Source: Asanoa iriomotensis (GTDB taxonomy: Bacteria; Actinomycetota; Actinomycetes; Mycobacteriales; Micromonosporaceae). Taken from it: a stretch of DNA of 34,244 nt. The notes beneath the pieces were generated by a model. That model searched no databases. It saw only the letters and a list, made by a program, of their open reading frames with translations, and had not been told where the DNA came from. Location: the NCBI RefSeq assembly GCF_016862515.1, contig NZ_BONC01000077.1, positions 1 through 34,244 on the forward strand, written 5' to 3'. The number at the start of each line of letters is the position of its first letter. Within the stretch, counting starts at the first letter, position 1. Shown in pieces: positions 15,620 to 34,228 of the stretch. A program made the translations under genes and the position numbers.

Positions 15620-16739
<1,120 letters not shown>

Positions 16740-16743
16740 CCGC

Positions 16744-16766
16744 GACCTCCTGACCTCCTGACCTCC
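16744..16766. repeat. Tandem GACCTCCT repeat
   Basis: Three near-perfect copies of GACCTCCT lie just after the xylanase stop and before the terminator hairpin. Function unknown; possibly replication slippage. Confidence 0.6.
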
Positions 16767-16804
16767 GGCCCCGTGGCCCGGCGACACCGCCGCGCCACGG
16801 GGCC
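16767..16804 (+). terminator. Strong terminator hairpin after the xylanase gene
   Basis: GGCCCCGTGG (16767-16776) pairs perfectly with CCACGGGGCC (16795-16804) across an 18-base loop. No U-tract follows. It separates the xylanase from the SARP gene. The remainder of 16805-16913 is AT-richer and presumably holds the SARP promoter, but I see no convincing -35/-10 pair. Confidence 0.65.
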
Positions 16805-16913
16805 GCCGCCGGTGATCGAGTCGTAACCATTTCGCTACGGGCGGGGATCGTGGCCGGCCGCCCCGGCGGGCATGCTGATGCCATCGGAGTCCATCTGTTG
16901 CGAGGTGCGGCGC

Positions 16914-19900
16914 GTGGAGTTCAGCGTTCTCGGCCAGCTGGAGGCATCCGTCGACGGACACCCGGTCAATCTCGGCGGCGCACGCCAACGGGTCGTCCTG
17001 GCGGGACTGTTGCTCAACCTCGGCCGCGCGGTGAGCGTGGCGGAGCTGACCGAGCTGGTGTGGGGTGACAACCCGCCGTCCTCCGCGCGCAGCCAGCTCC
17101 AGATGGCCGTCCATCAGCTCCGCCAGATCTTCGGCGAGCACGGCCAACAGGATCTGCTGCGGACGGACGCGGCCGGCTACCGGTTGCTGGTGGACGCCCG
17201 GCGACTGGATCTCGCCCGGTTCGAGGCCGCCATCGGCCGGGCGCGCAAGTTCGCCGGGAGCGGCGAGTCCGTGTCGGCGGCGCTGGAGCTGCGCACGGCG
17301 TTGGCACTCTGGCGCGACCGGCCCCTGCGGGAGCTGGCCAACGACCTGCTCACCCGGCAGACCGAGTGGCTCTGCGAGCTGCGGCTCGCGGCGGCCGAGG
17401 AGTTCTTCGAGCTCGAGACCGAGGCGGGACACGACCGCGACGTGATCCCCGAGCTGGTCGACTACGTGGGCGAGCATCCGCTGCGCGAGCGGCTGGTGGC
17501 GGCCCTGGTCAAGGCGCTCGGCCGCACCGGCCGGCAGGCCGAGGCCCTCGCGCTCTACCAGCGGACGGTGGTGGCGCTGCGCGAGGAGCTGGGCGTGGAT
17601 CCGGGGCCGGAGCTGCGCCTCGGCCACCTGCAGCTGCTCCGCGGCGACCTGGCGGTGGCGGTGGCGGTCGACGACGCCGCGCCGACGCCGGTGCGTGGGC
17701 CCGCCTCGCCCCCACGATCCCTGCCCCGGTCGACCCGACTGCTGGGCCGCGACGAGGACCTCGGCAAGGCGTTGCGGGCCGTCCGGGCCGCTGGTCCGGC
17801 GCCGCGGGTCGTCATGATCGCCGGCATGCCCGGGGTGGGAAAGTCCGCGTTCGCGGTCACGCTCGCCCGGCGGCTGGCCGACGACTATCCCGACGGCCAC
17901 CTGTTCGTGCACCTGCGTGGCCACGGCCAGGGCACACCCGTCGACCCGGTGGAGGCGTTGGGGGTGCTGTTCGACCAGCTCGGCGTGGCACCGCAACAGG
18001 TGCCGGCGTCCCTGGAGGGCAGGAAGGCGTTGTGGCGCCGGCTGATGGCCGGCCGCCGGTCGATCGTGGTGCTCGACGACGCGACGACGACCGCCCAGAT
18101 CGAGCCGCTGCTGCCCGACGACGGCGGCCCCTTGGTAGTGGTGACCAGCCGGGCGGCGATCGGCGTCCTGGACGGCGCCTGGCCGGTCACGCTCGACGTG
18201 CTGTCGCCGGCGGATGCCGTCGCGGTGCTGCGCGACGTCGTCGGCGACCGCGTGGCCGGCGAACCGGCGGCCGCCGGCGAGGTGGCCGAGCTGTGCGGCC
18301 GGCTGCCGCTGGCCCTGCGGCTGGCCGCACACCGGCTGCTGCACCGTCCGCAGTGGACCGTCGCCGACATGGTCCGCCAGTTGCGCGCGGCGGAGCCGAC
18401 GCCGATCCGGCTCACGGTCGAGGGCCACAGCGTCGCCGCCGCGTTCGAGGTCTCATACCGCCAGCTCGACGAGCCGCAGCGCCACCTGTTCCGCCTGCTC
18501 GGGCTGCACCCCGCCGTGCCGTTCGAGGCGTGGGCGGCCGCGGCCCTGGCCGGCGTGCCGATCGCCGAGGCCCGGGACATTCTCGACGGGCTCGTCGACG
18601 TCCATCTCGTCCAGGCCGTCACCGCCACCCGCTACCAGTTGCACGACCTCGTCCGCGCGTACGCCGTTTCCCGGGTCACCGAGGTCGAGCAACCGCCGGC
18701 CGTCGTCCGGATGCTCGACTACTACCTCTACACCGCGACCGTCGCCGACGAACCGCGTGGCCTGCGTCCGATGCGGGCGGTCGAGGTGCCGGCCGGTGCC
18801 CTGGTGCGGCCGCTGGAACCCGGACCCGCCGAGGTGGCCTGGTCGCGATACGAGTGGCCGACGATCGTGGCGCTCACCGACCTGGCACACGGCATGGGCC
18901 TGCTTCGGCACGCCGCGCTGCTGCCGCTGGCGGCGTGGCAGGCCGCGACCAACGACGGCCACAGCGCGGTCATGGTGCGGCTCTGCCGTCAAGGCCTGGA
19001 CGCCGCGGCCGAGTTGGGGGACGAGGCCGCCACGGCCCGGCTGCATCACTACGTCGCCGGCAACTACCAACGGCTGGGTCAGCCCGCGGAGAGCGTCACG
19101 CACCTCGAGCTCGCGGCCGCCCATCACCGCCGCGTGGGTGACCTGCCGAGCGTGGTGCACGCACAACTCAACCTGAGCGTCGTCAAACGCGACGACGGCC
19201 GGCTCGTGGAGGCGTTGGCCGACGTCCGGATCGCCGTGACCCTGGCCGAGCAGATCGGTGACGCGCAGGCCCTCGCGACCGCGCGCCGGCTTCACGGAGT
19301 GGCCGCCAGTCGCGCGGGCGACCACGAAACCGCGCTGGCCCAGCTCCGGCGCTCCGTGGCCTGGAACTACCGGCACGGCGCACCCTGCGGGTTGGAGTTG
19401 GCGCTCGGCTCGCTCGCCCGCGCCCACCTGCTCGCCGGCCACTTCAGGCTCGCGGCCCTCCTGCTCCGACGCACCGTGCCGGTGCTCGAACAGGCGGGCC
19501 GTCCGGGCGACGCCGCGGAAGACCTCAGCGCCCTGGCACGGGCGTTGCTCGGGCTCGACCGGCCGCTGGAGGCGTTGGACAGCCTGACGCGAGCCCAGCA
19601 GCACCTCGCCGCCCTGGCCGATCCCTACTTCGAACCCGACGTCCTCAACAGCCTGGGCGCCACACTCACCAGGCTGGGGCGCACAGGTGAGGCGGTCGCC
19701 GCACACGAGCGGGCGCTCGCCTCGGCCCGGCTGACCCACCAGCGTTACGAGCAGGCGCGTGCCCATGCCGGGCTCGGCTCCGCACACGCCGACGCCGACG
19801 CGGCGCGACTGGCCCGGGAGACGGCGCTCGAGATGTTCCGCGCGATGGGCATCGCGCCCGTGACGGCGGAGACCCTGGCGGGCCCCGGGCCCGGGGCCGT

Positions 19901-19943
19901 GGCTGTCCACGGCCCCGAGACCGGTGAAACCAGGCGTCTCTGA
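16914..19943 (+). CDS. AfsR/SARP-type regulator with NB-ARC and TPR domains
   Basis: A 1009-residue regulator. The N-terminus is an OmpR-like winged helix (VEFSVLGQLEASVDG, GARQRVVLAGLLLN) followed by a bacterial transcriptional activation domain, to about residue 245. An NB-ARC ATPase follows, with Walker A GMPGVGKS at residues 304-311 and Walker B VVLDDA, then a long TPR array (about residues 680-990). This is the large SARP layout of AfsR, which activates secondary-metabolite genes. The start is GTG at 16914, with GAGG 8 bases upstream; an in-frame ATG at 16872 would add 14 untypical residues. It ends 14 bp from the convergent RiPP precursor gene, so it is a candidate activator of that locus. 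Confidence 0.93.
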   Translation: MEFSVLGQLEASVDGHPVNLGGARQRVVLAGLLLNLGRAVSVAELTELVWGDNPPSSARSQLQMAVHQLRQIFGEHGQQDLLRTDAAGYRLLVDARRLDLARFEAAIGRARKFAGSGESVSAALELRTALALWRDRPLRELANDLLTRQTEWLCELRLAAAEEFFELETEAGHDRDVIPELVDYVGEHPLRERLVAALVKALGRTGRQAEALALYQRTVVALREELGVDPGPELRLGHLQLLRGDLAVAVAVDDAAPTPVRGPASPPRSLPRSTRLLGRDEDLGKALRAVRAAGPAPRVVMIAGMPGVGKSAFAVTLARRLADDYPDGHLFVHLRGHGQGTPVDPVEALGVLFDQLGVAPQQVPASLEGRKALWRRLMAGRRSIVVLDDATTTAQIEPLLPDDGGPLVVVTSRAAIGVLDGAWPVTLDVLSPADAVAVLRDVVGDRVAGEPAAAGEVAELCGRLPLALRLAAHRLLHRPQWTVADMVRQLRAAEPTPIRLTVEGHSVAAAFEVSYRQLDEPQRHLFRLLGLHPAVPFEAWAAAALAGVPIAEARDILDGLVDVHLVQAVTATRYQLHDLVRAYAVSRVTEVEQPPAVVRMLDYYLYTATVADEPRGLRPMRAVEVPAGALVRPLEPGPAEVAWSRYEWPTIVALTDLAHGMGLLRHAALLPLAAWQAATNDGHSAVMVRLCRQGLDAAAELGDEAATARLHHYVAGNYQRLGQPAESVTHLELAAAHHRRVGDLPSVVHAQLNLSVVKRDDGRLVEALADVRIAVTLAEQIGDAQALATARRLHGVAASRAGDHETALAQLRRSVAWNYRHGAPCGLELALGSLARAHLLAGHFRLAALLLRRTVPVLEQAGRPGDAAEDLSALARALLGLDRPLEALDSLTRAQQHLAALADPYFEPDVLNSLGATLTRLGRTGEAVAAHERALASARLTHQRYEQARAHAGLGSAHADADAARLARETALEMFRAMGIAPVTAETLAGPGPGAVAVHGPETGETRRL

Positions 19944-19957
19944 GCAGCGCCCGGTGT

Positions 19958-20131
19958 TTACCAGGCCTTGCTTCCGAATCGCGCGGACTTGTCGTCGCTC
20001 GTGGCCTGCTCGGCGACCCGGGCGAGGGCCGTCTCGAAGGCGCCGTGGATCCGGCCGGTGTCGCGGGTGGACCGGTACATCCCCAGCGGGATGTCGACGA
20101 GGTCGCTGACCGGTGCGGTGGTCTCGGGCAT
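19958..20131 (-). CDS. RiPP precursor peptide candidate (57 aa, FxsA-like leader, FGSKAW end)
   Basis: A 57-codon gene starting at ATG 20131 with AGGAG 6 bases upstream and ending in TAA. The peptide begins MPETTAPVSDLVDIPL and ends DDKSARFGSKAW. The acidic leader with an SDLVDIPL segment resembles, from memory, FxsA-type precursors matured by FxsB radical SAM enzymes. The likely core holds an aromatic-x-Ser tripeptide, Phe52-Gly53-Ser54, the kind of site where such enzymes join the aromatic ring to the third residue. Unlike the FxSxx-COOH family, three residues (K55, A56, W57) follow the Ser. It lies 76 bp downstream of the MFS gene on the same strand. No homology search was possible. Confidence 0.75.
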   Translation of the reverse strand: MPETTAPVSDLVDIPLGMYRSTRDTGRIHGAFETALARVAEQATSDDKSARFGSKAW

Positions 20132-20152
20132 CGTGTGCTCCTGTGGTGATCG

Positions 20153-20170
20153 GCCGGCCTTGGTGCCGGC
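20153..20170 (-). other. Hairpin between the MFS gene and the precursor gene
   Basis: Two copies of the self-complementary GCCGGC (20153-20158 and 20165-20170) form a 6-bp stem with a 6-base loop, 21 bases before the precursor start. It could limit read-through or mark a processing site, giving the peptide gene a different expression level from the exporter. The effect is inferred. Confidence 0.35.
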
Positions 20171-20207
20171 GGCTGGGATCAGTCAAGGCGGCGGCGGTCT
20201 CGGGACG

Positions 20208-21491
20208 CTATGCGGCCGCTATCGCCGTCGGTTGGTGACGCATATCCGGTGCGGTCGGATAGTCGCGCAGGACGCGCAGCGGTGACGCGAGCGGCCACGC
20301 GGTGGCCGCGAGCATGACGAGTCCGGCGACGACCATGGTGGCCCGCAGCCCGAAAGCCGTCGCGAGCAGGCCGCCGAGCACCGCGCCGACCGGGTTCATG
20401 CCGGTCACGAGAATGGTCGCGCTGCCCATGACACGGCCGCGAAGATGGGCCGGGACGAGCGCCTGCCGCACCGATCCACCGACCACCGCGGAGACGGTCA
20501 GCGACGCACCCCACAACAGATTGCCGACCGACAGCACCAGCCAGGCGACCGCGGGAGGCCCAGCGGCGGCCGCGCCCAGCAGACCGCCGACTCCCCCCAG
20601 CGCGCAGGCGCCGATGATGGTCCCGCCCACGCCGAACCGGGCGACGGCCACACTGGACAGTGCCGAGGCGACCAACCCGCCGACGCCGAGGCAGGCGAGC
20701 GCCAGCCCCGTGCCGCCCGCGCCGAGGTGCAGTACCTGCACGGCGAAGAGCACCGCGACGGCGCTGTTCATGCAGGCACCGATATTGCTGACGCAGGCCT
20801 CGCCGACGAAGGCGCGCAACGTGCGCTGGCGCACCAGGAACCTGAGCCCCTGGCGCGCCTCCGCGACGAAGGCCCGCCGCTCGCCGGCGGTCACTGCGGG
20901 CTCGGCCACCGTGATCCGGCGCAGCAGGAGCGCCGACACCACGTACGAGACGGCGTCGGCGACCAGCGCCCCCGGACCGGTGAGCAGCGCGACGAGCCCT
21001 CCGCCGAGTCCGCGTCCGCCGATGGTGGTGACGGCCGCGCTGGCCGCGAGTTTGGCGTTGCCCTCGGGCAGCAGCTCCGGGCCTACCACGGTCGGCAGGT
21101 AGGCGTTGCCGGCCAGGTCGAAGAAGACGTCGAGCGTGCCGACCACCAGCGTGGCGAGGACAAGCTGCCAGTACGCGAGAGCGCCGAGCAGTGCCGCCGT
21201 GGGCAGGGCCAACAGGACCGCCGCCCGTCCCCAGTCACACCCGACGAGGACGCGGCGCCGCGGCAGCCGGTCGACCCAGACCCCGGCCGGAACGGAGATG
21301 AGCAGCCACGGCAGGAAGCCCGCCGCGACGAGCAACGCCAGTTCCATCGGTGTCGCGTTCAGGTTCACCGCGGCGATGTACGGCATCGCCAGCACGGTCA
21401 CCTGCGTGCCCAGCATGGAGACGCTGCGCGCCCCCCAGAGTCGCCGGAAGTCGAGGTGTCGCCACAGGTTGGGCGCGTCAGCAGTGGGCAT
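20208..21491 (-). CDS. MFS transporter, probable exporter of the peptide product
   Basis: A 427-residue major facilitator of the MFS_3 / enterobactin-exporter-like group with about 12 membrane helices. It starts MPTADAPNLWRHLDFRRLWGARSVSMLG, typical of that group, and shows the loop motif GVWVDRLPRRRVLV between helices 2 and 3. The ATG at 21491 has GAGG upstream. It is divergent from the radical SAM gene and upstream of the precursor gene on the same strand. Export of the mature peptide is the likely role by context; drug or metabolite efflux is the alternative. Confidence 0.88.
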   Translation of the reverse strand: MPTADAPNLWRHLDFRRLWGARSVSMLGTQVTVLAMPYIAAVNLNATPMELALLVAAGFLPWLLISVPAGVWVDRLPRRRVLVGCDWGRAAVLLALPTAALLGALAYWQLVLATLVVGTLDVFFDLAGNAYLPTVVGPELLPEGNAKLAASAAVTTIGGRGLGGGLVALLTGPGALVADAVSYVVSALLLRRITVAEPAVTAGERRAFVAEARQGLRFLVRQRTLRAFVGEACVSNIGACMNSAVAVLFAVQVLHLGAGGTGLALACLGVGGLVASALSSVAVARFGVGGTIIGACALGGVGGLLGAAAAGPPAVAWLVLSVGNLLWGASLTVSAVVGGSVRQALVPAHLRGRVMGSATILVTGMNPVGAVLGGLLATAFGLRATMVVAGLVMLAATAWPLASPLRVLRDYPTAPDMRHQPTAIAAA

Positions 21492-21510
21492 GGCCGGACC
21501 TCGCCGATCT

Positions 21511-21529
21511 GTCGAAGGAGGGTTTCGAC
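21511..21529. promoter_or_regulatory. GTCGAA-N7-TTCGAC inverted repeat in the MFS/radical SAM divergent region
   Basis: A perfect 6+6 inverted repeat in the 177-bp gap that must carry promoters for both the MFS (minus) and radical SAM (plus) transcripts. Candidate operator for coordinated control. I see no clear -10/-35 pair in the gap. Confidence 0.35.
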
Positions 21530-21668
21530 CAGCTCAGCCGACGGCGCTATGCGTCGCCTATCGCGCGCACCGCGCCGGCATGGCGGACCGAGAGCGCATC
21601 GGTGGCGACCGCGTCGATGGTGGGCGCCGGTGCCCGTAGCGGGCGGGTGAACGGATTCGAGGTGCGAG

Positions 21669-22913
21669 ATGACCGTGGTGACCGTTGCCGGGACCGTGGA
21701 CGAGGCCGCGCAGTGGCCGACACGGGCAGTCGTGGACGCGGCGTTCGCCGACCCCACCTGGCGACCGCTGCCCTTCCGGGAGTTCATCCTGAAGGTGCAC
21801 GGCCGCTGCAACCTGGCGTGCGACTACTGCTACATGTACGAGATGGCCGACCAGAGCTGGCGGACCAAGCCGGCGGTCATGGAACGGGCTGTGTTCGACC
21901 AGGCGCTGCACCGGATCGCGGAGCACGCGCGGACGCACGGGCTCAGCGGCGTCGACGTCATCTTCCACGGTGGCGAACCGCTGATGGTCGGCACCGCGTA
22001 CCTCGACGAGGCGGCCACCGCAGCCCGCGCCGCGATGCCCGCGGGTGTGCGGGCCGACCTGTCGATCCAGACCAACGGCACCTTGCTCACCGAGTCGACG
22101 CTCCGGGTGCTCGCCGCGCACGACATCGGTGTCGGCGTCAGCCTCGACGGTGGGGCGGCGGCCAACGACCGGCACCGCCGCTACCGCGACGGCCGCGGCA
22201 GCCACGCGGCCGTCATGCGCGGCATCGCGGCGCTTCGCAAGCCCGCCTATCGGCACCTGTTCACCGGCGTGCTGTGCACGGTGGACCTGGCCAACGACCC
22301 GGTCCAGCTCTACGAGGACCTGCTGGAGACAGGCGCACCGGGCGTCGACTTCCTGCTGCCGCTGGCCAACTGGGAGTCACCACCGCCGGGGTACGGTCCA
22401 CATGAGAGCGGCACACGCTACGCGGAGTGGCTGATCGCCATCTTCGACCGGTGGTACGACGCGCCCACCCGCGAGGTCGGCATCCGGTTCTTCGACGAGA
22501 TCATGAACCTCGTCCTCGGCGGCGCGAGCACCAGCGAAATCATCGGACTGAGCCCGGTGCGGATGCTCGTGATCGACACCGACGGCTCGATCGAACAGGT
22601 CGACGGCCTGAAATCGGCGTTCGAGGGTGCGCCCGACACCGGCCTGAGCGTTCGGTCCCACCCGTTCGACGCGGCGCTGACGCATCCCGCGATCGTGGCC
22701 CGGCAACGCGGCCTCGCCGCGCTGTCGACCACCTGCCTCGCCTGCCCGGTCCACGAGATCTGCGGCGCGGGCCTCTATTCGCACCGCTACCGTCCGGGAA
22801 CGGGCTTCCTCAACCCGTCCGTCTACTGCACCGACCTGCGCACGCTGATCGACCACATCGCGGGTCGGGTCGGCGCCGACCTGCGCCGCCTCGCCGGGGA
22901 GACGGACCGATGA
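21669..22913 (+). CDS. Radical SAM/SPASM peptide maturase, FxsB-like
   Basis: A 414-residue radical SAM enzyme. The KVHGRCNLACDYCYMYE segment carries the CxxxCxxC cluster (Cys47, Cys51, Cys54) that binds the SAM-cleaving 4Fe-4S. FHGGEPLM and VSLDGG are the next conserved strands. The C-terminal SPASM region has Cys356, Cys359, Cys365 and Cys387 for an auxiliary cluster. The pattern, including the KVHGRCNLxCDYCYMYE start, matches FxsB-type maturases, which form C-C cyclophane links in short peptides. ATG 21669 has GAGG 6 bases upstream. It overlaps the HExxH gene by 4 bases. The precursor at 19958-20131 is the likely substrate. Confidence 0.9.
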   Translation: MTVVTVAGTVDEAAQWPTRAVVDAAFADPTWRPLPFREFILKVHGRCNLACDYCYMYEMADQSWRTKPAVMERAVFDQALHRIAEHARTHGLSGVDVIFHGGEPLMVGTAYLDEAATAARAAMPAGVRADLSIQTNGTLLTESTLRVLAAHDIGVGVSLDGGAAANDRHRRYRDGRGSHAAVMRGIAALRKPAYRHLFTGVLCTVDLANDPVQLYEDLLETGAPGVDFLLPLANWESPPPGYGPHESGTRYAEWLIAIFDRWYDAPTREVGIRFFDEIMNLVLGGASTSEIIGLSPVRMLVIDTDGSIEQVDGLKSAFEGAPDTGLSVRSHPFDAALTHPAIVARQRGLAALSTTCLACPVHEICGAGLYSHRYRPGTGFLNPSVYCTDLRTLIDHIAGRVGADLRRLAGETDR

Positions 22914-24589
22914 CCGGGATCACCTGGACCGAGCTGACCGCGCTGGGCGGCGGCCACCTCGACGCCGCCGCGGTCACCGCGCTCGCCAACGGCCAGCACC
23001 GCAAGCGCATCGTGATGCTCACCCTGTTGCTGGACCGCGTCGCCGAGCGCTGTCCCGCCGAGACCGCAGGCGTGGAGGCCGCGTTCGGCCTGCTCGCCGA
23101 CGCTCAGGCCAGAGACCCGCGGGCGGTCAGGGACGTGCTGATGGATCCGGCCGTGGGTGCCTGGCTCGCCCGCATGCTGCGCCGGCTGCACACGACCGAC
23201 GCGGCCGACGACGAGCTGGCTTACCTGTCCGCGATCGCGGTCGCAGGAGCGGCCCGAGCGGGGCACGCGTGCGTGACCGAGCTGGCGCTGCGCGACGGGT
23301 CGGTGGTCATCCCGACGCTCGGACGCATCGACCTGCCGGGCGAGCGCACGGTGACCGTCACGGTCCAGGACGGCAGGCTCACCGTGGACGGCGAGCAGCT
23401 GGCGGAACGGCACGGCTGGCAACCCATGCGACGGAACACGTCGTACGCGGGTGCCCGGACCCTCGTCGTCGACCTCGACGACCTGGCCAGCGCGGCCACC
23501 CGCCTCTCCGAGGCCGAGCTCGCCGGATGGCGATCGGCGCTGGACAGCGCGTGGACCGTCCTGGCAGACGACAACCCGGGCCGCGCCGACGCCATCGCCG
23601 CGGGGCTGCGCAGAATCGTGCCGCTGGCGCCGAACGCGGCCGGCGAGGCCGCCAGCGTCACCTCGCGCGACTCCTTCGGCAGCATCGCGACGACACTCCC
23701 GCACGACGGCCTCACCTGCGCCGACACGCTGATCCACGAGTTCCACCACGCGGTCCTCTACGCACTCGGCGACCTGGTGGCGCTGCACCGTGCCGACGAC
23801 CAGCCCGTGCACTATTCGCCGTGGCGGGACGATCCGCGGCCGATCGACGGACTGCTGCACGGCGCGTACTCATACCTCGGCGTCGTCGACTTCTGGCGCG
23901 GCCAGCGCGAGGTCCTCACGGGACCGCGACGCCGCTTCGCGGACTTCGAGTTCGCGCGATGGCGCCGGCAGGTGGTGATGGCTGGTCGGCTCCTGCTCGA
24001 CTCGGCCCTGCTGACCGACGACGGCACCACCTTCGTCGCGAGCCTCGTGGCAACGGCCGAACAGTGGCTGGCCATCCCGGTCGACGACCGCCCCCGCCGG
24101 CTCGCCGACCAGACGGTCGCCGACCACCTTATCCGCTGGCGCCTACGCCACCGGCTCCCGGACCCGGCGGCGGTGGCGGCGATCGCCGCGGCCCGCCGCG
24201 CTGGCCTGCCCTGCCCGTCACACCCGGCCACGATCGACGGAGAGGTGCGGCCGCACCCGCCCGGCCAGCCCCTCAGCGACCGCACCCGCCTGGCCGCCAT
24301 CGCCGCACGCGGCGAGGATGCGCTGGCGGCCGCCACCGGCGACGTCGACGACCTGCGATTGGTGGCCGGCGCCGTCGCCGAGGCCAACGCCGGATACCTG
24401 GAACGCGTGCGCCACACACCGTCGGACATCGAGTCGTGGGCGGGGTTGGCCCTGTGCAGCCCGGAGGGTTCCGCGCTGCGCACCGCACCGGAGGTCGTGC
24501 GCGCGGTCGCCGCGGCGACGGACGACCTGGACCTCTCCGCCCTCGACCGCTGGCTCCGCGCACCGGTGCTCGAAAGGACAGACATTTAG
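22910..24589 (+). CDS. HExxH-motif peptide-modifying enzyme (probable peptide beta-hydroxylase)
   Basis: A 559-residue protein of the HEXXH-domain family found beside or fused to FxsB-type radical SAM enzymes (TIGR04267, now described as alpha-ketoglutarate-dependent HExxH peptide beta-hydroxylases). The metal motif HEFHH is at residues 276-280, and a conserved PWRDDPRPIDGLLHGAY segment follows, whose His317 is the candidate third ligand. The N-terminal 200 residues and the alanine-rich C-terminal part have no recognisable catalytic motif. Both motif histidines and Glu277 are intact, so it is not the inactivated form. The ATGA overlap with the radical SAM gene suggests the two act on the same peptide. 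A metallopeptidase role is the alternative. Confidence 0.85.
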   Translation: MTGITWTELTALGGGHLDAAAVTALANGQHRKRIVMLTLLLDRVAERCPAETAGVEAAFGLLADAQARDPRAVRDVLMDPAVGAWLARMLRRLHTTDAADDELAYLSAIAVAGAARAGHACVTELALRDGSVVIPTLGRIDLPGERTVTVTVQDGRLTVDGEQLAERHGWQPMRRNTSYAGARTLVVDLDDLASAATRLSEAELAGWRSALDSAWTVLADDNPGRADAIAAGLRRIVPLAPNAAGEAASVTSRDSFGSIATTLPHDGLTCADTLIHEFHHAVLYALGDLVALHRADDQPVHYSPWRDDPRPIDGLLHGAYSYLGVVDFWRGQREVLTGPRRRFADFEFARWRRQVVMAGRLLLDSALLTDDGTTFVASLVATAEQWLAIPVDDRPRRLADQTVADHLIRWRLRHRLPDPAAVAAIAAARRAGLPCPSHPATIDGEVRPHPPGQPLSDRTRLAAIAARGEDALAAATGDVDDLRLVAGAVAEANAGYLERVRHTPSDIESWAGLALCSPEGSALRTAPEVVRAVAAATDDLDLSALDRWLRAPVLERTDI

Positions 24590-24661
24590 CATCTCGGGGG
24601 TACGCGGTTATGGTGACGTCATGCGGCGCGCCAGCCAGCCACGCGTGGGCCGCGGTCCGCG

Positions 24662-25461: not shown

Positions 25462-26427
25462 ATGGACACCGAGCCCATCCTGTACGAGGTCAAGAAGACC
25501 ATCGTCGGCCAGGACGCGCTTCTCGAACGGCTGCTCGTCGCCCTGCTCGCCCGCGGGCACATCCTCGTGGAAGGCGTACCCGGTCTCGCCAAGACCCTGG
25601 CCGTGAAGGCGCTCGCCGGCGCGATCGGCGGCCAGTTCCACCGCGTGCAGTTCACCCCCGACCTCGTGCCCGCCGACATCGTCGGCACCCGCGTCTACCA
25701 CCAGCACAGCGGCGAGTTCCAGGTGTCGCTCGGGCCGGTGTTCACCAACCTGCTGCTCGCCGACGAGATCAACCGTGCGCCGGCCAAGGTGCAGAGCGCG
25801 CTGCTCGAGGTCATGCAGGAGCAGCAGGTGACGATCGGTCGCGAGACCCACCAGGTGCCGCGCCCGTTCCTGGTCATGGCGACGCAGAACCCGATCGAGT
25901 CCGAGGGCACCTATCCGCTGCCGGAGGCGCAGGTCGACCGGTTCATGATGAAGGTGCTGGTCGGCTACCCGAGCCCGACCGAGGAGTTCGTGATCGTCGA
26001 GCGCGCGATCGCCGCGACGGGTGCCGGCCAGGCCGTCGCCGATCCGGAGCGGCTGGTCGCGATGCAGGAACAGGTCGATCGGGTGTACGTGGACCCGGCG
26101 CTCATCGAGTACGCCGTGCGGCTGGCCAACACCACCCGCGACCCGGCCGCGGCGGGGCTCGGCGACCTGTCCCGCTACGTCAGCTTCGGCGCCAGCCCGC
26201 GCGCCTCGATCAACCTGATCCTGGCCGGCCGGGCGCTGGCGTTCATCCGGGGCCGCGACTACGTGGTGCCGTCCGACGTCACCGAGCTGGTCCTCGACGT
26301 GTTCCGCCACCGGCTGGTGCTCTCGTACGAGGCGCTCTCCGACGACGTCACCCCCGACAGCATCCTGACCCGGGTGATGGCCGCCGTTCCCGTCCCCGAC
26401 GCGCCCTTGCAGCGGACCGCCCGATGA
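25462..26427 (+). CDS. MoxR-family AAA ATPase
   Basis: A 321-residue AAA+ ATPase with Walker A GVPGLAKT (about residues 38-45), Walker B LLLADEINRAP, and ATQNPIESEGTYPLPEAQVDRF, the family signature. MoxR proteins act as chaperone-like ATPases that load or activate partner complexes containing VWA proteins. AGGAG of its ribosome-binding site overlaps the protease stop codon. It overlaps the DUF58 gene by 4 bases. Confidence 0.95.
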   Translation: MDTEPILYEVKKTIVGQDALLERLLVALLARGHILVEGVPGLAKTLAVKALAGAIGGQFHRVQFTPDLVPADIVGTRVYHQHSGEFQVSLGPVFTNLLLADEINRAPAKVQSALLEVMQEQQVTIGRETHQVPRPFLVMATQNPIESEGTYPLPEAQVDRFMMKVLVGYPSPTEEFVIVERAIAATGAGQAVADPERLVAMQEQVDRVYVDPALIEYAVRLANTTRDPAAAGLGDLSRYVSFGASPRASINLILAGRALAFIRGRDYVVPSDVTELVLDVFRHRLVLSYEALSDDVTPDSILTRVMAAVPVPDAPLQRTAR

Positions 26428-33445: not shown

Positions 33446-34228
33446 CTAACCCGCCATCCCGCCGGCGGCTTCGGCGATGGCCGTGTCGACGCGGTGGGCC
33501 AGCGCCACGTCCGACTCCGTCACCGTGCCCGTCGAGGCCGTGTAGGCGGTCAGCGTGGCCGTGCCCGCCGACGGTCGCGCGATGTGCGGCGACCGGCCCG
33601 TCTCCCGCAGGCGCTCGATCCGCGGCAGCACCCGGTCCAGGTTGTCCGGTGGCAGCTCGATCGTCCGGCTGATCGCGTGGTGGTCCCCGTCCCAGTCCGG
33701 CAGGTCGCGCAGCGCCGCGACCACGTCCGCGTCGTTCAACGGCAGCGGGCGCCCGGGCGTGGTGCGCTCCTCCGGCGGCAGCGGGTCGGCCAGCGAACGC
33801 AGTTCCGCCGGCAGCGGCAGGTCGAGACCCGCGTCACCCAGGGCCGCGAACACCGCCTGGACCTTGACCCTTATCTGCTCCGGCCGCCGCTCCACCAGGC
33901 GGCCGACCTCGCGCAGGAACATCGTGAGGTCCCGCTCCGGTGGCCCGGACAGCGCGCGCGGCGCTTCCAGATCCGCCGGCAGGCTCGCGATCAGGTGCTT
34001 GCCGTCGGGGTCGTCGAGCGAGCGCGCCGTCACCCCGACGACGGCCTGGGTCAGCTCGCGGGCGTCCGCGAACGAGTCACCCGTCAGCGCGGCGATCTGC
34101 CCGACCAGCTCCCGGTAGCGCAAGCGGGGACCGGCCCCCGCGTCTGTCGAGGTGTCGCCGTTCGGCGCGCGACGGGGCCACGTCGCGGACGGCGTACCCG
34201 GTGAAACGATCTGTCCCGCACCCGCCAC
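33446..34228 (-). CDS. DUF2267 and pterin-4a-carbinolamine dehydratase-like fusion protein
   Basis: About 260 residues with an N-terminal DUF2267 domain (YRELVGQIAALTGDSFADA through REVGRLVERRPEQI, about residues 38-150) and a C-terminal half resembling pterin-4a-carbinolamine dehydratase (LRDLPDWDGDHHAISRTIEL, then LTAYTASTGTVTESDVALAHRVD). The dehydratase His-His-Pro-Asp segment appears as GRSPHI, so activity is uncertain. The GTG at 34228 is a possible start, but the frame stays open to the window edge and the real start may lie outside. It ends one base from the arginyl-tRNA synthetase stop, convergently. Confidence 0.75.
   Translation of the reverse strand: MAGAGQIVSPGTPSATWPRRAPNGDTSTDAGAGPRLRYRELVGQIAALTGDSFADARELTQAVVGVTARSLDDPDGKHLIASLPADLEAPRALSGPPERDLTMFLREVGRLVERRPEQIRVKVQAVFAALGDAGLDLPLPAELRSLADPLPPEERTTPGRPLPLNDADVVAALRDLPDWDGDHHAISRTIELPPDNLDRVLPRIERLRETGRSPHIARPSAGTATLTAYTASTGTVTESDVALAHRVDTAIAEAAGGMAG

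Follow-up and report, generated by a model that had tools for sequence, protein, structure and literature searches.

A probable cyclophane peptide cassette with a divergent FxSxx-type precursor in Asanoa iriomotensis

The window analyzed here is a stretch of 34,244 nucleotides from Asanoa iriomotensis (NCBI RefSeq assembly GCF_016862515.1, contig NZ_BONC01000077.1, positions 1 to 34,244 of the forward strand), and it probably contains a cassette for a cyclophane-bearing ribosomally synthesized and post-translationally modified peptide (RiPP), of the kind that combines an FxsB maturase with an α-ketoglutarate (aKG)-HExxH enzyme, equipped with its own exporter and regulator and with a 57-residue peptide as the precursor. 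The most likely product is an exported peptide carrying a cyclophane between F52 and S54 and a hydroxylation. Positions 19958-24589 hold a 57-codon gene and a major facilitator superfamily (MFS) gene on the minus strand and a radical SAM/SPASM gene and an HExxH gene on the plus strand (Table 1). A model that saw only the letters and their open reading frames (ORFs) had called these four genes an unrecognised RiPP locus with an FxsB-type maturase, a separate HExxH enzyme, a precursor, and an exporter. Family, profile, and pairwise evidence support this original prediction in the main, and its layout agrees with the coordinates and frames, including the good ribosome-binding site and FGSKAW end of the 57-codon gene, the 4-base overlap (ATGA) of the radical SAM and HExxH genes, and the divergent starts of the exporter and maturase genes, 177 bp apart. 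The word "unrecognised" does not hold for the locus as a whole: both enzymes pass the cut-offs of curated families (TIGR04269 and TIGR04267) and the NCBI annotation of a Nocardia plasmid has this pair too, so systems of this kind were known before and only the precursor is unrecognised.

The radical SAM protein belongs to the curated FxsB family TIGR04269, which it matched at 481.7 bits in hmmscan (cut-off 370). Its cysteines C47, C51, and C54, together with C356, C359, and C365 of the SPASM domain, are conserved in all 66 aligned FxsB rows (65 of them different), and SPASM C387 in 65 of the 66, so that the residues for the clusters that had been claimed are intact. Its solved homologue is ChlB (9gm3, E 4.9e-78); the predicted model has a predicted local distance difference test score (pLDDT) of 71.9. 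By family, the protein is a putative cyclophane-forming maturase, and formation of a three-residue cyclophane is its predicted reaction. The separate HExxH protein likewise belongs to TIGR04267 (164 bits in hmmscan, cut-off 40), and H276, E277, and H280 are conserved in 48 of 48 HExxH rows, two of which come from one locus. Its solved homologues are 22nu (E 7.7e-41) and ChlH (8s5f, E 7.5e-9). An AlphaFold2 model built from 27 alignment rows (pLDDT 92.9) was compared with solved structures using Foldseek, which returned 22ob (title SjiH-Ni) with E 5e-22 and TMt 0.86, along with four ChlBHExxH chains from 8s5f at TMt 0.69-0.75; of the 120 matches listed, only these five had E ≤ 0.001. As modeled, the protein has the aKG-HExxH fold, and aKG-dependent hydroxylation is its predicted activity. 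A search of the open-access literature turned up nothing related to SjiB or SjiH among the matches listed, and when FxsB was sought there in full text together with cyclophane or radical SAM, none of the matches listed mentioned FxsB.

The 57-codon ORF was kept by our codon-usage gene caller (score 20.7; trained on 21 sequences, the window among them), which called no other gene shorter than 400 aa between 16905 and 24589. The peptide ends in F-G-S-K-A-W and so has three residues after the serine instead of the exactly two of an FxSxx terminus; longer tails are also seen in other FxsB-adjacent peptides, for example at loci L045 and L047, and many of the FxsB loci we fetched have an ORF of 45-90 aa in which an aromatic-x-small motif lies close to the end. 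TIGR04268, the standard detection model for FxSxx-COOH precursors (cut-off 28 bits), gave no match to the peptide at E ≤ 1, and the gene is too divergent for this model. A TIGR04268 search of the whole genome also gave no match and was not used, the control having found 0 of 14 genomes. A hidden Markov model (HMM) of 32 FxsB-adjacent precursors placed the peptide at the top of the window's 561 six-frame segments (E 0.0043; 0.14 for the runner-up), with a score attained by none of 2000 shuffles, and a second HMM of 47 precursors gave it E 0.0031 (next segment 0.33). In leave-one-out runs of the 32-precursor HMM, the locus's own peptide came first in 31 of 32 cases, with E-values mostly far better than that of the window (best 2.4e-16, four at 0.0017 or worse). 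The training peptides, which never included that of the window, were chosen by hand among short ORFs that had passed a filter for an aromatic-x-small motif close to the C terminus, so the part of this evidence that concerns the motif is partly circular. Pairwise local alignments gave scores of 56 against the precursor of G104 (locus L173; 0 of 5000 shuffles as high), 43 against that of L102 (0 of 5000), 48 against that of G130 (L167; 1 of 5000), and 40 against that of G035 (L055; 5 of 5000). The G130 peptide passes TIGR04268 at 44.8 bits, and its alignment thereby connects the window peptide with an accepted member of the family; L173 (19.6 bits) and L102 (24.4 bits) fall below the cut-off and L055 has no match. 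Because of the HMM ranks and the alignments to four of five precursors, our preferred reading of the window peptide is a diverged precursor of the FxSxx type with three residues, as opposed to two, after the serine.

Comparison with five congeners (G001-G005) delimits an accessory block around these genes. DNA matches on the left end at 16739-16746 and those on the right, where window 14001-34244 was the query, begin at 24564-24603, in all five congeners and with flank identities of 79-91%; the DNA between the flanks had no blastn match in the congener stretches fetched (10-15.5 kb each). The block contains exactly five genes: the four already described and a SARP-type regulator gene, which the original prediction had left out of the gene set. 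The congeners carry these two flanks at distant places or on separate contigs, and this, with no empty site found, means that the block may represent more than one event.

Several results weigh against the cassette reading. The peptide has no match in NCBIfam, Pfam, or PHROGs. A search of 250 genomes of the family found no close homologue: 12 of the 250 had a match at E ≤ 0.1, the window itself being the sole strong one, so that conservation of the peptide beside homologous radical SAM genes, on which the reading had been staked, is borne out only to the extent that distant homologues adjoin FxsB genes. One of these matches (G032:C42:84202-84360, E 0.039) is 1.4 kb away from the nearby FxsB gene, and we dropped it as chance because it is antisense to a called 511-aa gene. 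A control with 11 loci lacking FxsB gave one locus that scored better than the window under the 32-precursor HMM (E 0.0022); under the 47-precursor HMM the best from the same loci was E 0.017, versus 0.0031 for the window. The alignment to the L259 precursor, which was not scanned with TIGR04268, failed (score 25; 778 of 5000 shuffles). Precursor and enzyme genes lie on opposite strands, unlike at the G130 locus, where the precursor gene precedes the radical SAM gene. The block holds no leader protease gene, and none of the five congeners offered an empty site. The nearest relatives of the MFS protein, at 42% identity, lie off the contigs that bear their genomes' FxsB hits, and the MFS proteins that do adjoin FxsB are only ∼24-35% identical to it.

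To place the locus among its relatives, we collected FxsB loci from relatives and from named genomes (at least 52 loci from the latter), drawn by likeness to the window FxsB and not at random, and called their genes with a home-made codon model. We kept 103 loci, and the 89 with at least 6 kb on both sides were used for counts. FxsT, the STAND/TPR partner, was sought by BLAST with the L102 FxsT at 1e-20 within 8 kb. At this distance, 76 of the 89 loci had FxsT, 19 an MFS gene, 6 a SARP gene, 58 a separate HExxH gene as in the window, and 2 a fused one. No FxsT was found within 8 kb of the window FxsB, an absence that the original prediction, correct about the FxsB-type maturase, had missed, and by this measure the locus does not resemble the conflict type. 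Only the window, among the 89, combined MFS, SARP, and HExxH genes with a lack of FxsT. In a 98-row FxsB tree whose bootstrap had not settled, the window formed a clade (100/98) with G130, L063 (Streptomyces albus subsp. chlorinus), and L068 (S. aculeolatus). All four members lack FxsT and the three next rows have it (96/93); over the tree, FxsT absence is clustered, requiring 9 changes versus 15.9 in shuffles, with 0 of 500 shuffles as low. A seven-row clade that added G104, G001, and G293 (100/96) was not recovered in the 98-row tree, and we rely on the four-row clade only. Exporter genes were more frequent at FxsT-less than at FxsT loci within 3.5 kb (6/13 versus 4/76, p 0.0005) and within 5 kb (8/13 versus 4/76, p 7e-6). 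Within 8 kb the counts were 9/13 versus 32/76 (p 0.08), and because the difference weakens at this distance we regard the enrichment as partly a matter of spacing, among related loci, and do not take it as proof.

The absence of FxsT bears on where the product would act. Kaur et al. (2020), cited here like the other papers from excerpts, proposed that FxSxx peptides serve as toxins or signals and are linked with conflict systems inside the cell that involve AP-ATPase and vWA-MoxR-VMAP genes (PMC7159879). The window peptide could thus be modified as we propose and yet act inside the cell, its MFS neighbor being incidental. The prevalence of FxsT in the survey and a MoxR gene downstream of the block (25462-26427) would fit such a role, but the window FxsB has no FxsT within 8 kb, the precursor gene shares a strand with the exporter gene and lies 3' of it, and the trypsin-MoxR stretch starts only beyond the limits of the block. 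Because that stretch is kept in all five congeners without an adjoining Fxs block in the DNA fetched, we take it to be ordinary core DNA and rejected the trypsin-like and MoxR genes as cluster members. We consider an intracellular role unlikely. A secreted product is favored, since the locus has no AP-ATPase partner and the precursor is coupled to an exporter gene, from which it is separated by 76 bp with the MFS gene upstream. A broader reading, speculative and rather doubtful in our judgment, is that the cassette belongs to one branch of the Fxs systems which abandoned the conflict setting with STAND/FxsT, and that its product is a secreted, cross-linked, hydroxylated peptide serving as an antibiotic or pheromone. 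Its basis is the four-member FxsT-less clade, in which two members have an adjoining MFS_3 gene and two have precursors with signal-like N termini. These last are L063 and L068, whose hydrophobic N termini are among the four highest of 41 measured (those of the window and G130 are not) and which have no HExxH gene within 8 kb. In its boldest form, the product would be a pheromone that the block's own SARP/NB-ARC/TPR regulator senses.

The MFS protein matched Pfam MFS_3 at 80.4 bits (cut-off 27), and its genome has at least 13 MFS matches at E ≤ 1e-20, itself included, among the part of the candidates that was scored. From gene position, it likely exports the peptide; we do not rate export higher because the protein belongs to no dedicated FxsB-linked subfamily. 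The SARP gene converges on the peptide gene, with 14 bp between its end and the peptide stop, and its product is the probable cluster regulator. It contains BTAD (116.1 bits), NB-ARC (31.4 bits), and TPR_12 (64.0 bits) domains and belongs to a common family, with 31 matches in the genome at E ≤ 1e-20, itself included. It fell short of the equivalog models for AfsR (NF053617; 428.7 bits, cut-off 1430) and HaaT (NF041717; 266.8 bits, cut-off 1125). We rejected a HaaT-like assignment, the likeness being generic because an unlinked paralogue scored nearly alike (244.6 bits); a second control (L282) matched no family, possibly owing to a wrong frame. Against the FxsT model NF040586 the SARP protein reached 94.2 bits, below the cut-off of 300, and the unlinked paralogue 88.6. 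A sigma-70 pattern scan of 19800-21750 returned no promoter-like sites, and three weak terminator-like sites all fell within the MFS gene.

We propose the following sequence of events. The leader would be the N-terminal part of the peptide, and the core its C-terminal tail, which includes FGSKAW. FxsB would bind the leader and join the ring of F52 to the beta carbon of S54, giving a three-residue cyclophane (-2 Da). The entry IPR026335 we take to be the FxsB family. MscB (IPR026335) bonds Phe to the C-beta of a Ser two residues on in a three-residue cyclophane (PMC11002830), and it is because of this bond that F52 and S54 are put forward as the site. The HExxH enzyme, which the 4-base overlap may keep in 1:1 coupling with the radical SAM enzyme, would then place a hydroxyl group (+16 Da) on a beta carbon within the ring or close to it, at a site that cannot be predicted. 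A protease from elsewhere in the genome would cut off the leader, the MFS protein would export the product, and the SARP protein would turn the cassette on.

The residues hydroxylated by published aKG-HExxH enzymes are His, Asp, Phe, Gln, and Pro (PMC12636437, PMC13060819): ChlH, a beta-hydroxylase, acts on His and Asp of a peptide whose cyclophane has already been formed, PesO acts on Pro, and PflC and PosC couple Gln hydroxylation to oxidative cleavage. The HExxH enzyme of the window might therefore cleave the peptide backbone, oxidatively like PflC and PosC or as a peptidase, and so release the core. PflC can hydrolyze without a leader (PMC12636437), Kaur et al. assumed the HExxH protein to be a peptidase (PMC7159879), and the block is without a protease gene; yet the nearest solved structures are SjiH and ChlBHExxH, ChlH is a beta-hydroxylase, and the ARMD motif is not in the sequence of the window peptide. 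We judge cleavage quite unlikely and retain beta-hydroxylation as the predicted activity. Very unlikely is a true substrate encoded at another place, such as next to the genome's second FxsB gene: the 57-codon ORF has no library match, is divergent in strand, and lies 2.2 kb from the center of the radical SAM gene, and that second locus has an FxsB and a 67-aa precursor, but it also has its own HExxH gene, and the window ORF has profile and pairwise evidence, a good ribosome-binding site, and no competing short gene among those called in the block.

Table 1. Features of the cassette and its surroundings in the window.
Feature	Position	Strand	Basis
SARP-type regulator (BTAD, NB-ARC, TPR)	16905..19943 (longest ORF from 16872)	+	Pfam domains; inside accessory block
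Precursor peptide, 57 aa, distant FxSxx-COOH type, C terminus FGSKAW	19958..20131	-	profile and pairwise alignment
F52-G53-S54, predicted cross-link tripeptide	19970..19978	-	sequence; analogy with MscB (PMC11002830, excerpt)
Ribosome-binding site CACAGGAGCACACG of precursor gene	20132..20145	-	sequence, directly 5' of ATG
MFS_3-type putative exporter gene	20208..21491	-	Pfam MFS_3
Divergent intergenic region, 177 bp, promoters expected	21492..21668	.	gene coordinates
FxsB-family radical SAM/SPASM peptide maturase	21669..22913	+	TIGR04269; ChlB structure 9gm3
Separate aKG-HExxH-type peptide beta-hydroxylase (predicted)	22910..24589	+	TIGR04267; predicted fold
Accessory block between DNA conserved in congeners	16747..24563	.	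blastn versus five congeners

Other observations were made in the same material. The second Fxs locus of the genome (L043, C86:10000-28000) has a 67-aa precursor ending in AAFQSVLSPDE, FxsB, HExxH, and a 1460-aa FxsT-like protein. Another cyclophane RiPP is encoded in this genome on contig C78 (L278:7293-8637), with an AmcB-type radical SAM enzyme (NF041718, 524.4 bits) and a 79-aa AmcA precursor (NF041722, 110.7 bits) ending in FYNWNNRPR. At C15:98882-101255 of the same genome (L277), the remains of an HExxH gene, broken over two frames, are directly followed by an MFS gene ∼30% identical to that of the window, and there is no FxsB match on this contig. The gene at window 33446-34123, right of the trypsin-MoxR genes, matches DNA to the left of these genes in four of five congener stretches (79-82% DNA identity), which suggests a local rearrangement. 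Elsewhere, one FxsB-adjacent precursor (L051:3464-3694) has three near-repeats of GNFSSFIE and thus looks like a multi-core FxS precursor, and a Streptosporangiaceae metagenome-assembled genome (L075) has three near-identical FxS precursor genes at one locus. Strongly hydrophobic N termini were found in the FxsB-adjacent precursors L044:9319-9591, L175:8186-8458, L063:7679-7915, and that of L068; three of the four had no NCBIfam match at E ≤ 1, and the L068 precursor reached 15.3 bits against TIGR04268, below the cut-off. As the window peptide shows, real-looking FxS precursors beside FxsB genes escape the precursor models, and product counts from TIGR04268 are too low because the models miss them. 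With one precursor, two enzymes, and one exporter, the window cassette offers a compact test case for whether FxS peptides are secreted or are parts of intracellular conflict systems, as Kaur et al. (2020) proposed.

Compared with Fxs systems (TIGR04268, TIGR04269, TIGR04267, and NF040586), the window has FxsB and HExxH proteins above the cut-offs and a distant precursor with FxS near its C terminus; it differs in a precursor missed by TIGR04268, in the three residues after Ser, and in the lack of FxsT within 8 kb, and it is unlike most in having SARP (6/89 loci) and MFS (19/89 loci) genes. Nearest by FxsB is G130, of the same family, whose FxsB is 62% and HExxH protein ∼39-41% identical and which, like the window cassette, lacks FxsT, has HExxH as a gene of its own, and carries an MFS_3 gene (115.1 bits) in divergent orientation. 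In contrast to the window, its precursor passes TIGR04268 and sits upstream of the radical SAM gene on the same strand, it has no SARP gene within 8 kb, and its MFS protein is not matched by BLAST with the window MFS at 1e-5. The Nocardia plasmid resembles the window in an FxsB 57% identical, a 47-aa ORF, an HEXXH gene, and an MFS gene, which NCBI annotates as FxsB, HEXXH protein, MFS transporter, and hypothetical protein. The cyanobacterial ChlB/ChlH pair and SjiH supply the solved homologues of both window enzymes (9gm3, 8s5f, and 22nu/22ob), although ChlBHExxH is described as one fused radical SAM and aKG-HExxH protein and the window has two separate genes. The triceptide enzyme MscB, likened here by its description and not by sequence, makes the Phe-Ser C-beta cyclophane that is predicted for FGS (PMC11002830). 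What distinguishes the window variant among these systems is its divergent precursor, missing FxsT, exporter pairing, and SARP gene.

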